A stretch of 64,000 nucleotides of DNA, taken from Promethearchaeota archaeon (lineage in GTDB: Archaea; Asgardarchaeota; Lokiarchaeia; Sigyniarchaeales; Promethearchaeaceae). The stretch covers positions 447,590-511,589 of the forward strand of contig JAFGBS010000009.1 of assembly GCA_016933055.1 (NCBI GenBank), written 5' to 3'. Position numbers and translations under genes: made by a program. The notes beneath the pieces are model-generated. The model was given only the letters and a program-made list of their open reading frames with translations. It searched no databases and was not told where the DNA came from. This document shows, in pieces, positions 1,370 through 53,951 of this stretch (position 1 is its first letter; every line of letters begins with the position of its first letter).

Positions 1370-2692
1370 CTAGATTTTTTGAGTATATTTTGCAATAAAG
1401 GCTGCGAGGTCCATAACTTTGATACTTTCTGGTTTTTCATTACCCTCATCATCAGTCTCATTCAAATAACAATTAAAGTGAGTGATACACTTTGGACAAG
1501 TAGTTATAAGATATTCTGCGTCCGTATCTATTGCTTCATTAATTCTATTTTCCCGTAATATTTTTGTATTCGAATTGCATGAACGAAATGTAGATACACC
1601 ACAGCAATTTGCGTCATCCCGAATTGCTTTCATTTCAATCAATTCAATTCCTGGAATGCTTTTTAGCACTTTACGGGGGGCATCGTATACTTTTCCCCCT
1701 AATCGTCCTAATCGGCATGGATCATGATATGTCACCCTTGCTTTTACGGGGAATCGAGGTCCTAATAGGTGTAACAGATCTTGTTCGATAAGAAATTCAG
1801 AGAAGTGTTTTACTTCAAAATCACAATTATCAACAAGTTTGGGATAATCAAACTTCCACATTCGATATCCCTCTGCGCACTCGACTATAATGGTTTTTAC
1901 TCCCGACTTCTTATATTGGTTCACGTTATATTGGGCTAATTTTTTGGCAGTTTCGATATCACCAACCCAATAATTATCGTGCCCACAACATTTAGTTTCA
2001 AGCACTACAGGTGTAATTCCACCCTCATTCAAAATAGTTATCACTCCGCGGGGAGTATTTTTATATTGCGATCGGAATTGATAAAAAATATCATCCAAAA
2101 GTGACGTACAACCAATAAAATATGCAATCTCTCCGGATTCTGTGATTTTTAGTGAAGAATCATTCTTGATGAAGCCAATGTCATTTGTTTTTAAATCTGA
2201 TTCGCTTTGGAGTTTAGGATATAATTGCATAATTCCATCATGGGTGCTACCCTTAGTTAGTTCTTCTGTAAGTAAATCTTTATGATAGCCATATTCTCGT
2301 ATACCTTGCACGATCTCTGCTATAAGAACACCTTCACCGGCTTCATCTGAAGCCATTGGGCAGTAAATTGCACATTGCTCACATGTTAGACAATTAAAAA
2401 GCTTTTCATCTTGTATAAAAACATCTAAATCGTCAACACCATGAGTAACTAAGTTGTGAATGAAATCTTTTGGCGAGAAAATGCCTAATAAATGTGTAGG
2501 GCACACTACGAGGCATTTCCCACATGAGTAACAATAATTTGCTAGCTCCTTTACACGTTCCAGTTTTTTTGAGAGTTCTGGTGGGACTTGTTGTGCTTGA
2601 GTCATGAAGTTAACCTTTGAAAAACCAGTTCTATATCTAAAATCCTTAATTACATCAATTAAAGATTTCCACCTACTTCCCTCCAAATTCAA
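1370..2692 (-). CDS. Fe-S oxidoreductase, heterodisulfide reductase HdrD-like (2x4Fe-4S plus two CCG domains)
   Basis: YCYSCGKCLVVCP and NCLTCEQCAIYCP ferredoxin motifs; CCGHDNYW and CCGVSTFRSC CCG motifs; same strand as the GltD-like gene. Confidence 0.88.
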   Translation of the reverse strand: MNLEGSRWKSLIDVIKDFRYRTGFSKVNFMTQAQQVPPELSKKLERVKELANYCYSCGKCLVVCPTHLLGIFSPKDFIHNLVTHGVDDLDVFIQDEKLFNCLTCEQCAIYCPMASDEAGEGVLIAEIVQGIREYGYHKDLLTEELTKGSTHDGIMQLYPKLQSESDLKTNDIGFIKNDSSLKITESGEIAYFIGCTSLLDDIFYQFRSQYKNTPRGVITILNEGGITPVVLETKCCGHDNYWVGDIETAKKLAQYNVNQYKKSGVKTIIVECAEGYRMWKFDYPKLVDNCDFEVKHFSEFLIEQDLLHLLGPRFPVKARVTYHDPCRLGRLGGKVYDAPRKVLKSIPGIELIEMKAIRDDANCCGVSTFRSCNSNTKILRENRINEAIDTDAEYLITTCPKCITHFNCYLNETDDEGNEKPESIKVMDLAAFIAKYTQKI

Positions 2693-2790
2693 AAAATTTA
2701 GTAGTATTCACCGCAATTAATCTAAAGGTTTTTTCCCCATTTTTCTATTTTCTATATTTTTTTACGATAGGAAATCATACATAAAGTAAG

Positions 2791-46968: not shown

Positions 46969-47301
46969 CTAAAGACCGCGAGCTTTTTTGAGACGCGCTT
47001 GCCTTAATTTTCGTTCTTTCTCCCATTTCTTACCACAAAACTTACAATATAATCCAAAAAGACTCTGATCTTCAATCTCAAATGGTTTGGCACATTTTAC
47101 ACAAACAGAATGATATTCAAACCAATAAGCTTCATGATCTGGATCAATCTCGATTTCTTTTTCCTTTGAAATCCCGCATTGGTTACAATAGATCCCCGAC
47201 AGAATTGCTTCGCCATCATAAAACATTTTACCGCATTTCACACAGCAGTTACTTTTGATTTCGTTCCATACAGGTTTTGAGTTTTTCCGAATTTTCTCCA
47301 T
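46969..47301 (-). CDS. Small multi-zinc-ribbon protein
   Basis: Four CxxC pairs: CCVKCGKMF, IYCNQCG, SVCVKCAKPF, LYCKFCGKKW. Confidence 0.65.
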   Translation of the reverse strand: MEKIRKNSKPVWNEIKSNCCVKCGKMFYDGEAILSGIYCNQCGISKEKEIEIDPDHEAYWFEYHSVCVKCAKPFEIEDQSLFGLYCKFCGKKWEKERKLRQARLKKARGL

Positions 47302-47354: not shown

Positions 47355-50327
47355 TTATGATGTTTTAATTGGATCTTCTTGAAGATTATCAATGTTAGTT
47401 TTTGATTGTAATTTGGATAGAACTTTTCTCAGATATTTACCAGTATATGAACGGTCATTGACCGCTATTTCTTCTGGTGTTCCGGAGGCAATGATCTCCC
47501 CCCCGTTTTCACCACCTTCTGGTCCCAAGTCAATGATATAATCCGCACTTTTAATTATGTCCAAATTATGTTCAATTACAACTACTGAATTGCCTTGATC
47601 GACTAATCGTTGAAGAGCTTTTATCAGAATCTTTACATCATGGAAATGTAAACCTGTAGTGGGTTCATCCAGCAAGAAAAGCGTATTTCCTGTGGAGCGT
47701 TTAGATAATTCTCTGGATAATTTCATTCTCTGTGCTTCTCCACCACTTAACGTAGTGGAGCTCTGTCCCAACTCAATATAGCCCAAACCGACATCAACAA
47801 CGGTTTGTAATATTTCGTTTATCTTTTGATTATTTTCGAAGAATTCTAATGCTTGGTTGTGGGTCATTCGCAAAACTTCGTAGATATTTTTACCTTTATA
47901 TTTCACTTCTAAAGTTTCTTCATTATATCTTTGCCCTTGACACACATCACATTTCACGTACACATCAGGGAGGAAATGCATTTCAATAAGGTTATACCCC
48001 AAACCACCACATTTTTCACACCTTCCCGCTTTTGTATTAAACGAAAAACGACCTTTCTCATATCCTCGAATCTTTGCTTCTTCAGTTTTTGCAAAAGTGT
48101 CTCGTATATAATCGAAAGCTTTTGTATATGTGGCTGGTACTGATTTAGGAGTTCTCCCAATCGGGCTCTGATCAATGTTAATTATTTTATCAATATATTC
48201 CAATCCTTCGATAGTGTCATATTTTATGTGCAATCCTTTCTTCTTGCGGCGTAAAGATTCTTCTACTGCGTTGAGGAGAACTTCCTGAACTAATGATGAT
48301 TTACCAGCACCCGAAACGCCCGTTACACATGTAAACACTCCTAGTGGAATCTCTGCAGTAACACTTTTCAGATTATTTTCCCGAGCACCACTGATACGGA
48401 TTCTAGATTCAGAGAGAGGCCTTCGAGATTTAGGAAGGCATATTTTCTCTTTTCCGGATAAGTATCTGCCTGTGATAGAACGTGGATTATTCATAACTGT
48501 TTCTAAATTACCCGTTTCTACGATTTCTCCTCCTTTTTCCCCTCCAAATGGTCCGATATCCACAATGAAATCCGCAGCGCGTATCACATCTTCATCATGT
48601 TCCACAATTAGAACGGTATTTCCTCGCTTCTTTAACTCAATAAGCATATTGATCAACTTAGACTTATCTCGGGGATGCAGGCCTATCGTAGGTTCATCAA
48701 GTACATAAAGTACTCCCACAAGATTTGATCCAATTTGTGTAGCTAATCGAATGCGCTCACTTTCTCCACCTGAGAGAGTACGAGCCACACGGTCCAATGA
48801 AATATAATCTAATCCAACATTTTCTAGGAAAAAATACCTCGAATGAATTTCTTTAAGGATTTCCTTAGCAATCGTTCGTTCCCGTTTGGATAATTTTACA
48901 CAGTTGAACCAACGAATTGCTTCGGATACATACATCCGTGATACTTCCCATATGTTTTTGTCATTGATAGTTACAGCAAGACTAACTGGTTTTAATCGTT
49001 TTCCTTTACATGCGCTGCATTCGTATTCACGCATGAATTGTTCATACCACTCTCGCATCCCTTGGGATTTTGTTCTCAAGTATCTATTCTGAAGGATGGT
49101 AATAATACCTTTAAACGGACGCTTATACCTGACACTAAAATGTACTTCATCTTCGTCCTCTTCTTCTTCATTCTGTGAATCATATCCTCCATTACGTTCA
49201 AAATTAAAGGAAATTTTTTCTTTTCCCGTTCCATATAGGAATTTATTCCAAAATTCATCAGGAAGATCATCAATGGATTGAGTAATGTCCACATTGTAAT
49301 ATTCTGCAAGAGCTTCGATGGTTTTCCAACTCCAACTATTAATTGAACCAAACCCTCCCACTCGGGTCAACCCGCTATCATAAAGATTGACGGATGTATC
49401 GGGGAATATTTTAGCCTCATCAAAATTTAGAACGGTTCCTAAACCTTTGCAAAATTCGCACATTCCGTAAGGAGTGTTGAAGCTGAAGTCCCTAGCTTGC
49501 AGTTTTTCATACGAAACACCACACTCGGGACAGAAAAAGTGCTCTGAGAATATTTTGGAATCTCCATTTACTATGGAGATTTTTACTAGTCCTTCAGCAA
49601 GTTTAAGGGATGTTTCGATAGAATTAGCTACACGTGAACGGAATTCATCATCTTCTTCCGTTTTCATAATCAACCGGTCAACAATAACATCAATATCATG
49701 TTTGATATTCCTATCCAAGTTAATAGGTTCCTCTAAAAGGTATTCAATGGCTTCTTTTCCTTGATCTTGAATCATGATCCTTGAATATCCACTTTTCTGC
49801 AACTTCAGGAATAATTTTTCATAGGTTCCCTTTTTTCCCCGTACCATGGGTGCAAGAATCTTGAATTTTGTTCCGGTGTTAAGAGATTGCAGAATTTCAT
49901 GGATAATCTCTTGACTGCTTTTTGGAGTAATTTCTCTTCTACATATAGGACAATGGGGAATTCCGATATTTGCCCATAATAATCTTAAATAATCATAAAT
50001 TTCGGTAACCGTACCCACAGTTGAACGTGGGTTTTTTGAGACGGTTTTCTGTTCAATTGCAATAGCAGGAGACAATCCCTCAATATAATCAACATCTGGC
50101 TTATCCATTCCTTCTAAAAACTGGCGTGCATAAGCAGAAAGGGATTGTAAATATCTTCGCTGACCCTCTGCGTAAATAGTATCAATCGCTAAACTAGACT
50201 TACCGGAGCCACTTAGACCAGTAAATACAACCAATTTATCACGTGGGATTTTCACATCAATATTTTTGAGATTGTGTTGTCGTGCGCCTTTTACAATGAT
50301 GTATTTGGAATTATTGGGATTGGTCAT
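47355..50327 (-). CDS. uvrA: Excinuclease ABC subunit A
   Basis: [35 protein letters not shown]...[18 protein letters not shown]...[10 protein letters not shown]...[13 protein letters not shown]. Confidence 0.97.
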
Positions 50328-50505
50328 TTCTATGTTACCGTTTCAAGATCTTCAATTTAGTCCCACTTTTTGAGTTTACTACTTTGAATTAAAAAGAAGA
50401 ATGCGCTGGAGAAATAATTAATTGAGGAAAAAAAACCGCAACTTATTGATAATCTAAGTATTGATCTACTTTTATTAATCCAAATTACAAGTTGCTTTTG
50501 AAGTA

Positions 50506-51966
50506 TTAGACATATATATTTTCCTTGGGATCGGGGGGGTCTGTATCTTCAATAGGGAATGTATCTTCTTCCAAGATTTGGGTTAATTCCCATTCCCGTT
50601 CGTTTCCTTCTCGATCAAATACTCTCAGGAGATCTAAGGAACTTTCCCCTTTGGTCGATCCAAGAATCATATTAATATAGTACATGTTGAAAGTTTGACG
50701 ATCTTGATCGGAGGGAATTGGGGGACCGAGAGTATGGGAATGAATGAATCCTACAATACTCGTATCCATAAAAGGAATTTGGTCTTTATAATATCCGGTT
50801 GCAAAAGGAGTAGAAAAATATCTTGCTGGGAGCCGGAGACGCCATATTACCCATCTATCTAGCTGTACAAAACCACCCATCTCGTTTGGAGCATGTTCCT
50901 TGGCCGTTTGTTTTGCTAAGTTAAGGAACTGCTGAGATATTTGGATTTTTCCAAATCCATAAAATCCTAAACATGCTTTAAGTTCCCTTAGGACTTCTGT
51001 TAAGCTATAAGGTTCACTCTTCAGCCACGTCCGGAGGGAATATAACCTATCAGACAAGGATTGAGTAGATAATTTTTCTACAATAAAAACGGGGAATTCA
51101 AATTTTGGAGGATCGGGATAATCACTCAAATCCATGAAAACTGCATAATTTTCTCCTAAATCGACGGAATACCTATTTTCATAGTTATCTAATTTCTCAA
51201 TAGTGAACATATTGGACGCTTTCTTAATTTGTTGGGATACGTTGAAGATTTGCTCTTTAATTCTCGTTTTTTTTTGTGCAATTAGTTCTTTCAACCTAGG
51301 AGGTGTATATAATTCGTCCACTTTTCTTTCAAGTTCGCTATAAGATGGATATTTCCTTATAATTTCCATATCTTTTGGCTCGAGTGTATCAAAAGCATTT
51401 ATTGCAGTCTTAAATCGTCCTTTAAATTCTAACAGTAGTGTTCGAGCTAAATCTTGATAGGATTTTATAAATAAACTATTCTCAGGTTCAAGCGTATAAG
51501 CTTCTTTATACATATTTAAAGCATGCTCGAAATTTTTTAATTTCTCATACTGGGTTGCTGCGAGATACGTCGCTAGTTGAGCTACTTCGGGATAATTATC
51601 GCGCATATACTCGCATAATTCTACAGCCACACCTGGTCTTTTTATTGAAATAATTATTTCTGCACGCTTTAACAATGCTTCCGCAGGTTCTCCCTCAATT
51701 GTATCCAGTTTTTGATACTGTTCTATTAAAAACCCCTTTATATCTTCCATCATTTTCCCTAAACATTCGTGATTTTCCGAAAGCCGATGCGTGGAACAAA
51801 ATTTCTTCCCACAATATGTGCATTTATTCATATAATTTTGGATTTTGATATTGCAGTAATAACAAAGCTCTAAATTTTCGTAATTATTTGATAATTCCTC
51901 GTATAATTTGTTCTTTTTTTGTTTCCTTATTGTTAAACCCCTCCTATAGAAACATATTAAAAACAA
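50506..51966 (-). CDS. AN1 zinc finger + TPR-like helices + JAMM/MPN+ metalloprotease-like domain
   Basis: AN1: CYYCNIKIQNYMNKCTYCGKKFCSTHRLSENHEC (C-x2-C-x10-C-x2-C-x4-C-x2-H-x5-H-x-C); JAMM: NEMGGF...GFIHSHTLGPPIPSDQD (E...HxHx7SxxD); helical middle YEKLKNFEHALNMYKEAYTLEPENSLFIKSYQDLA. Confidence 0.85.
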   Translation of the reverse strand: MFLICFYRRGLTIRKQKKNKLYEELSNNYENLELCYYCNIKIQNYMNKCTYCGKKFCSTHRLSENHECLGKMMEDIKGFLIEQYQKLDTIEGEPAEALLKRAEIIISIKRPGVAVELCEYMRDNYPEVAQLATYLAATQYEKLKNFEHALNMYKEAYTLEPENSLFIKSYQDLARTLLLEFKGRFKTAINAFDTLEPKDMEIIRKYPSYSELERKVDELYTPPRLKELIAQKKTRIKEQIFNVSQQIKKASNMFTIEKLDNYENRYSVDLGENYAVFMDLSDYPDPPKFEFPVFIVEKLSTQSLSDRLYSLRTWLKSEPYSLTEVLRELKACLGFYGFGKIQISQQFLNLAKQTAKEHAPNEMGGFVQLDRWVIWRLRLPARYFSTPFATGYYKDQIPFMDTSIVGFIHSHTLGPPIPSDQDRQTFNMYYINMILGSTKGESSLDLLRVFDREGNEREWELTQILEEDTFPIEDTDPPDPKENIYV

Positions 51967-51968
51967 TA

Positions 51969-53951
51969 TTATTTTATACTTTGTGCTAGTTCTTTTATTT
52001 TATCCCGAAGAAACGCTGCTTTCTCGAATTCTAAATTATCCGCATACTCTCGCATCAAAGAATCCAATTCATTAAGTAAATCAATCTTGTTTGCTTCTTC
52101 TTCAATTCTTTCCTCAATGGTTTTTTTAAGTGTGCTCTCCGCTTCTTCTTCATCTATAACTTCACGTGAAAGGGATTCTCTTAGTTGTTTTTGGATAGTT
52201 TGCGGTGTAATATCATGCTCCCTATTGTATCTAATCTGTTTTGCGCGCCTTCGATTGGTTTCCGCAATTGCTTCCGTAATGGATTTAGTAATTTTATCTG
52301 CGTATAAGATTGCTTTTCCATTTACATTCCGTGAAGCTCGACCAATAGTTTGGATTAGGGAACGTGTATTTCGCAGAAATCCTTCTCTATCCGCATCCAA
52401 TATAGCAACAAGGGAAACTTCTGGTAAATCTAATCCTTCTCGTAGCAAATTAATACCCACAACTACTTCAATTTCACCTGAACGTAGTTTTCTCAAGATT
52501 TCTGACCGTTCTACTGTGTCAATATCACTATGAAGATACTTTATTTTTATACCCCGCTCGGCATAGTATTCTGCTATGTTTTCTGCAAGGCGTTTTGTTA
52601 ATGTGGTTACAAGAACTCGTTCATTTCGTTGAACCACTTGTCGAATTTCATTTAATAAATCTTCGATTTGATCCTCTGTTGGTCGAATTTCAGTCTGAGG
52701 ATCTACTAAACCGGTGGGACGAATCACTTGATCAGCAATAAGCTTGCTTCTCTCCAATTCCCAATCCCCGGGAGTGGCACTGGTGAAAATAATTTGGTTG
52801 ATTTTGTTATCCCATTCAATAAATTTGAGAGGACGATTGTCATACGCTGCCTTTAAACGGAAACCAAAGTCAATAAGATTCTTCTTTCTTGAAATATCTC
52901 CTCCTATCATTCCGTGTACCTGTGGAACTCCTATGTGACTCTCATCCATCACCATTAGATAATCATCGGGAAAATAATCCAAAAGCGTGTAAGGCCTCTC
53001 CCCGATCTTCCTACCATCAAAATAGCGAGAATAATTCTCAATTCCTTTACAAGTCCCAAATTCAAGAATAGTTTCAAGATCATAGTTCGTTCTCTGCTCT
53101 AATCGTTGAGCTTCCGCATATTTTCCTTGTTTTTTGAACTCTTCCACCTCATCGTTGAGATCTTCTCGAATTTGTCTTATAATAGCTTCCAACACTTCAA
53201 AATTTGTAACATATTCACTAGCTGGAAACAGAAATATTTCATTCACATTTCGTATTGTTTTTCCCGTATATGGATTTACTTCATGAATATCTTCCACCTC
53301 ATCGCCAAAATAAAAGAGCTTGTACCCTAAATTCATCTCTGCGGAGTAGATTATCACAGTATCACCTTTGACTCTGAATAGTCCTGGGCGTATCTCGATA
53401 TCGTTTCGAGCATAAGAGATTTTAACCAATTTTTGGGAAAGATCCCGAATACTCAACGTTTGTCCTTTTTTTATTTTTATAATGCTCTCCTTACGGAAAT
53501 TTGGGTCACCAGAAGCGAATATACAGGAAACTGAGGCAATAACTATTACATCACGCCGAGTTAATAATGAACTCATAGCCTTTAAACGATACCAACGGAT
53601 CTGTTCATTGATATCCAGATCTTTTTCAATATATAGACCTTTTTCAGGTACATATGCTTCCGGTTGATAATAATCATAGTAAGAGATGAAATATTCTACT
53701 GCATTGTCTGGAAAAAGTTCCTTCAACTCTTGATACAATTGTGCAGCTAGTGTTTTATTTGGAGCCATCACAATAGTTGGACGTTGCACTTTTTCGATGA
53801 CTTTCGCAATACTAAAAGTTTTACCCGTTCCAGTCGCTCCAAGTAAAGTTATGTATTTATCTCTACGATTGAGAGCATTCACAATATCTTGAATTGCTGT
53901 AGGTTGGTCCCCTTTTGGCATATAGTCAGATTTAACCCTAAACTCGTCCAT
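51969..53951 (-). CDS. uvrB: Excinuclease ABC subunit B
   Basis: LLGATGTGKTFSIAKVIEK, YYDYYQPEAYVP, GINLLREGLDLPEVSLVAILDADREGFLRN, C-terminal UVR motif. Confidence 0.97.
   Translation of the reverse strand: MDEFRVKSDYMPKGDQPTAIQDIVNALNRRDKYITLLGATGTGKTFSIAKVIEKVQRPTIVMAPNKTLAAQLYQELKELFPDNAVEYFISYYDYYQPEAYVPEKGLYIEKDLDINEQIRWYRLKAMSSLLTRRDVIVIASVSCIFASGDPNFRKESIIKIKKGQTLSIRDLSQKLVKISYARNDIEIRPGLFRVKGDTVIIYSAEMNLGYKLFYFGDEVEDIHEVNPYTGKTIRNVNEIFLFPASEYVTNFEVLEAIIRQIREDLNDEVEEFKKQGKYAEAQRLEQRTNYDLETILEFGTCKGIENYSRYFDGRKIGERPYTLLDYFPDDYLMVMDESHIGVPQVHGMIGGDISRKKNLIDFGFRLKAAYDNRPLKFIEWDNKINQIIFTSATPGDWELERSKLIADQVIRPTGLVDPQTEIRPTEDQIEDLLNEIRQVVQRNERVLVTTLTKRLAENIAEYYAERGIKIKYLHSDIDTVERSEILRKLRSGEIEVVVGINLLREGLDLPEVSLVAILDADREGFLRNTRSLIQTIGRASRNVNGKAILYADKITKSITEAIAETNRRRAKQIRYNREHDITPQTIQKQLRESLSREVIDEEEAESTLKKTIEERIEEEANKIDLLNELDSLMREYADNLEFEKAAFLRDKIKELAQSIK

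Follow-up and report, generated by a model that had tools for sequence, protein, structure and literature searches.

The window (the whole stretch of DNA analysed, 64,000 nucleotides) sits on an 819-kb contig. The nearest named relatives of the 3.76-Mb Asgard genome to which this contig belongs are lokiarchaeal, and in the tree the rows of the source's family cluster with records named Promethearchaeaceae. An open reading frame on the minus strand, P0001, starts with a TTG codon 2 nt past the stop of uvrB, and uvrA comes next on that strand, an arrangement that the sequence-only reading had already described and that we confirm. The features of the locus, in window coordinates, are the following.

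51969..53951, minus strand: uvrB, upstream neighbour of P0001 (Pfam UvrB domains)
50506..51966, minus strand: P0001, AN1–helical/TPR–RWD-like–JAMM protein of 486 aa (open reading frame, Pfam, native codon usage)
51938..51945, minus strand: Shine-Dalgarno-like AGGAGGGG (sequence)
51760..51864, minus strand: AN1 zinc finger, residues 35-69 (Pfam PF01428; family search in the source genome)
51277..51714, minus strand: helical linker with a weak TPR signal, residues ~85-230 (sub-cut-off TPR_14; AlphaFold model)
50953..51267, minus strand: E2/UEV/RWD-like domain without catalytic Cys, residues ~234-338 (profiles, AlphaFold topology, intermediates)
50581..50949, minus strand: JAMM/MPN+ domain, residues ~340-462 (Pfam PF14464; Foldseek AF2198 and PfJAMM1)
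50881..50883, minus strand: predicted catalytic Glu E362 (invariant in alignment A2)
50734..50742, minus strand: predicted zinc ligands in H409-S-H411 (invariant in alignment A2)
50701..50712, minus strand: S419 and predicted zinc ligand D422 of SxxD (invariant in alignment A2)
50428..50435, minus strand: T8 tract within the 178 bp that separate P0001 from uvrA (sequence)
47355..50327, minus strand: uvrA, downstream neighbour of P0001 (Pfam UvrA domains)

P0001 is a genuine native coding gene. Its codon LLR is 0.174 per codon, compared with 0.014 to 0.037 in the other frames and -0.016 antisense, and its GC3 of 0.308 falls among the values of ten neighbouring genes (0.265-0.322). An assembly or contamination artefact is ruled out by the codon usage together with the 819-kb contig, which carries native uvr genes on both sides. 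The true start codon is uncertain, since a strong Shine-Dalgarno AGGAGGGG lies downstream of the TTG, for which inspection of the sequence revealed no ribosome-binding site, and is followed 7 nt beyond by an in-frame ATA (51930-51928); the stretch at 51928-51966 may thus hold a non-standard start codon, and the AN1 finger is intact with either choice. The T8 tract before uvrA is possibly an archaeal terminator. Downstream of uvrA, at 46969-47301 on the minus strand, the window also encodes a 110-aa double zinc-ribbon-like protein (DUF7564, 29.1 bits, under the cut-off).

The C-terminal part of P0001 matches the Prok-JAB family (PF14464) at residues 354-438 with 31.5 bits, against a cut-off of 25. 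The complete set of JAMM residues, E...HxHx7SxxD, that had been read from the letters is indeed present, and E362, H409, S410, H411, P418, S419, and D422 are invariant in all 50 rows of alignment A2, which comprises P0001 and 49 archaeal homologs. An AlphaFold model built on 50 sequences reaches a pLDDT of ~90 across residues ~240-460, and a Foldseek search with this model places MPN structures on top, confirming the anticipated MPN+ fold at the C terminus: AF2198 comes first (E 4.4e-7, TM(target) 0.88), followed by Rpn11, CsRpn11, and PfJAMM1, the last of which has also been solved bound to the ubiquitin-like protein SAMP2. The earlier comparison with Rpn11 and CSN5 stands for the MPN+ residues and the fold; it does not extend to the subfamily, as the four PF01398 (JAB, Rpn11-type) matches of the source genome do not include P0001, and the modelled domain is closest to archaeal enzymes of the AF2198/PfJAMM1 type rather than to Rpn11. 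From its sequence the enzyme is apparently active. P0001 forms a very long branch without firm placement in the tree (3.4 changes per site), and because of this branch, and because the protein is found in one genome, its fine specificity is not readable from conservation.

Between the AN1 finger and the JAMM domain, residues ~234-338 form an E2/UEV/RWD-like domain that the sequence-only reading overlooked. The AlphaFold topology is helix-4 strands-helix, a P-x2-P and a W are invariant, and the stretch shares homology with the N-terminal ~100 residues of standalone RWD–JAMM proteins; a family profile of the domain built without the P0001 row matches P0001 at E 3e-7. Direct comparisons are less telling: Foldseek finds its best E2 at E 0.17 with a probability of 0.96, which is not significant by E-value, in a list that includes FANCL, UBE2S, Ubc13, and the Vps23 UEV; hhalign of the profile directly against lokiarchaeal E2s gave no signal; and Pfam searches with single domains gave no significant match (BRE at E 0.014 is a lead only). 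The same profile matches Asgard proteins of ~600 aa, two tandem stretches strongly and two more weakly, and in Pfam these tandem-RWD proteins match RWD (down to 1.6e-8), UQ_con (4.8e-9), UEV, and FANCL_d1 (0.0009). By hhalign, the JAMM N-domain (alignment A3) pairs with repeat D2 at 98.6%, D1 with D3 at 98.4%, and D1 with lokiarchaeal E2s at 95.5%. Through these profile intermediates, membership of the domain in the E2/UEV/RWD superfamily can be regarded as established. Alignment A3 has no conserved Cys, as an active E2 (UBC) would need, so the domain is assigned to the non-catalytic, UEV/RWD-like versions.

The AN1 finger near the N terminus was correctly recognized from its ligand pattern: PF01428 scores 32.5 bits, above its cut-off of 27.9, and the spacing C-x2-C-x10-C-x2-C-x4-C-x2-H-x5-H-x-C supplies all eight of the C6H2 ligands. 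The TPR part of the earlier description fared less well. No TPR family passes the Pfam cut-off in P0001; the best, TPR_14, reaches 21.0 bits (E 4.7e-4) against 23.5, with the strongest stretch at residues 133-165. The AN1-plus-TPR stretch does align (48.5 bits) with another AN1-TPR protein that the genome encodes, 347 aa long, in which TPR_8 is above its cut-off. The AlphaFold model is all-helical at low confidence over residues ~85-230, and confidence is poor before residue ~240 because alignment depth is absent there. Elsewhere in the source genome, tandem genes appear to encode an AN1–rhomboid-like protein and an AN1–M50 peptidase (L001:685-1626 and 1775-2716, minus strand, in G000:C6); neither the rhomboid match, at 20.3 bits, nor the second AN1, at 15.9 bits, reaches its cut-off.

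The RWD–JAMM core exists on its own as a protein family of ~220 aa that is widespread across Lokiarchaeia and is neither named nor described in Pfam or, as far as our search went, in the literature. A profile of this family built without P0001 matches residues 242-461 of P0001 at E 3e-25. Among 228 Asgard genomes, the complete AN1–helical/TPR–RWD–JAMM fusion occurs in the source genome only, and no second protein combining AN1 and JAMM was found among these genomes and 59 relatives. The standalone loci have no generally conserved gene neighbourhood. A proteasome subunit gene lies near the RWD-JAMM gene at just four loci, two of them lokiarchaeal (L072 and L088), where it is one gene away, and two from Methanoperedens (L139 and L144), where the genes adjoin.

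No gene of the ubiquitin system is adjacent to P0001, and the source genome encodes ubiquitin, E1, E2, an Rpn11-like JAMM, and a RING-like protein together in one complete cluster (L228:4959-9312, in G000:C16), the last of these being a membrane protein whose Cys pattern is RING-like. The ubiquitin of this cluster ends in ...STAGM, not GG. A second ubiquitin-like protein of 84 aa, encoded about 21 kb from P0001 (G000:C17:520661-520843, minus strand), ends in ...TQAGGN, from which one residue would have to be removed for exposure of the GG. In all, the genome has three UQ_con matches, four PF01398 genes, and seven JAMM-type genes, including P0001 and the paralog described below. It also carries one of the ~600-aa multi-RWD proteins (L229:5602-7458, minus strand, corresponding to G000:C22:187602-189458), with relatives of several families (L204, L206, L207, L208, L209, and L210). 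This protein contains the same RWD module as P0001, has up to four E2/UEV/RWD-type domains followed by a C-terminal RING-like cluster, CP.C.R.YH..CW...CGFC, in a FANCL-like order, and is possibly an E3.

The paralog is a standalone RWD-JAMM protein (L145:9804-10481, plus strand, corresponding to G000:C2:257804-258481) with a syntenic ortholog, 66% identical, in the sister species G001 (L149:9432-10103, minus strand). In both, the Glu, both His, the Ser, and the Asp are all lost, with ISRP..N where HSHP..SxxD is expected and K in place of E. The HSH..PSxxD motif is kept in 54 of 56 homologs, P0001 included, and is missing from these two alone. At pS 0.78, synonymous differences between the two species are saturated, against a pN of 0.22, and both proteins have the same altered site, TFISRPDG; judged by this pattern of substitution, the catalytically dead paralog is a maintained pseudo-enzyme under purifying selection.

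Taken together, these observations suggest that P0001 is probably a JAMM isopeptidase for ubiquitin or a ubiquitin-like protein with built-in adaptor domains, its activity, its modifier, and the adaptor roles all being predictions. The C-terminal zinc-dependent JAMM would cut ubiquitin or a ubiquitin-like protein off conjugates; the RWD/UEV-like domain would serve as a non-catalytic dock for such a modifier or for another protein of the ubiquitin system; and the N-terminal AN1 with the helical/TPR region would provide another adaptor, directed at tagged substrates or at an AAA or proteasome partner. P0001 would work beside, not in place of, the Rpn11-like enzyme of the ubiquitin cluster, and its insertion at the uvrB–uvrA site would let it share the uvrB transcript without a role in excision repair. 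The chimeric deubiquitinase-like enzyme proposed from the letters is therefore retained as an AN1–JAMM chain in a genome with a full ubiquitin system, while the link to repair attached to it is not.

That link made P0001 a dedicated repair part, stripping ubiquitin or a ubiquitin-like protein from UvrA, UvrB, or stalled complexes, and we consider it very improbable. The 2-nt spacing to uvrB (about 38 nt if the ATA is the start) does suggest co-transcription with uvrB, but the 178-bp gap with its T8 tract precedes uvrA, and the standalone RWD-JAMM loci share no general neighbourhood. We sought uvrB in 39 genomes, the source included, and compared the downstream flank where it was readable: uvrA follows directly in most of the readable relatives (with a gap of 145 bp in G002, which has the closest uvrB, 68%), unrelated genes lie between the two in several, and a JAMM gene lies there in none. 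Coupling to nucleotide excision repair is thus without comparative support. The sequence-only reading had named beforehand, as grounds for dropping its claim, a synteny unique to this contig combined with separate transcripts; as for the first half, the uvrB-(AN1-JAMM)-uvrA order was seen on the source contig alone among the genomes with a readable flank. From the same genus just one further genome was examined, G001, a 76%-complete assembly without uvrA and uvrB, so the absence of the fusion from it is uninformative. Most likely, the position of P0001 is a lineage-specific insertion. Another reading takes P0001 to be a recent fusion or insertion, of an AN1-TPR gene and a fast-evolving RWD-JAMM copy, that drifts with no fixed role; the single occurrence, the very long branch, and the presence of separate AN1-TPR and RWD-JAMM genes in the same genome all agree with it. 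We judge it improbable all the same, if less so than the repair role, because every AN1 ligand and each of the five catalytic residues has been kept despite extreme divergence elsewhere, in a frame open for 486 codons with native codon usage.

A further model extends the adaptor-equipped isopeptidase rather than excluding it: P0001 may be the catalytic member of an MPN+/MPN− pair with the dead paralog, an old enzyme turned scaffold once the fusion had assumed its catalytic role. Such pairs have precedents in BRCC36 with KIAA0157/Abraxas and in Rpn11 with Rpn8. Conservation of the dead paralog in two species under purifying selection, and loss of the motif in this paralog and its sister ortholog alone, are consistent with the model, as is the requirement of BRCC36 for a pseudo-DUB MPN− partner for its activity (PMC4579573). 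The two genes are far apart, however, and the other lokiarchaeal RWD-JAMMs are of the active type with no known dead partner. The sister assembly, lacking uvrB and uvrA, probably lacks the P0001 stretch as well. A division of labour between the active fusion and the dead paralog is plausible by analogy, and we hold the pair as a tentative possibility, well short of the isopeptidase assignment itself. Less likely again is the fuller scenario in which, within this genus, an ancestral RWD-JAMM became a conserved pseudo-deubiquitinase while catalysis moved to the paired AN1–RWD–JAMM fusion, opposite a FANCL-like multi-RWD E3 of RING type. If true, it would amount to a home-grown MPN+/MPN− deubiquitinase with UEV/RWD-type adaptors, resembling BRISC or Rpn11–Rpn8 in design, and the E3 opposing the fusion/paralog pair would share the same RWD module.

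With respect to known systems, the domain fusion of P0001 looks unusual. In eukaryotes, deubiquitinases act within complexes in which an MPN+ enzyme is joined by an MPN− pseudo-enzyme, by docking domains of the UEV/RWD kind, and by AN1 adaptors; if these modules are shuffled in an Asgard genome, some of them in a single chain, one could test whether such combinations are pre-eukaryotic or arose independently. The nearest counterparts, the standalone lokiarchaeal RWD–JAMM (Prok-JAB) proteins, share the RWD-like and JAMM core of 220 residues, but they have neither AN1 nor the helical/TPR region and are only ~25% identical. Archaeal JAMM1/AF2198 enzymes, such as the SAMP2-binding JAMM1 of P. furiosus, have the same MPN fold and catalytic set in a single domain that lacks adaptor domains. 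Rpn11, CSN5, AMSH, and CsRpn11 have the MPN+ residues and fold in common with it, but the Rpn11 type belongs to PF01398, which P0001 does not match, and the source genome has its own Rpn11-like protein in the ubiquitin cluster. The BRISC and BRCA1-A complexes (BRCC36–KIAA0157/Abraxas–BRCC45) likewise combine MPN+ with UEV/RWD-type domains and, in parallel to the possible partner here, with an MPN− protein, although P0001 carries the UEV/RWD-like and MPN+ domains in one chain and the likeness extends to the parts only. The archaeal AN1–rhomboid and AN1–M50 proteins resemble P0001 in bearing an N-terminal AN1 on a peptidase, and fusion of AN1 to peptidases is a recurring theme in the source genome; these are membrane peptidases, in contrast to the predicted soluble JAMM of P0001. 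Finally, ZFAND2A/AIRAP relieves the inhibition of PSMD14 by arsenite (PMC8465394), so that AN1 and JAMM, combined in P0001, also cooperate in eukaryotes, but AIRAP and Rpn11/PSMD14 are two proteins, and P0001 is one chain with a JAMM of another subfamily.
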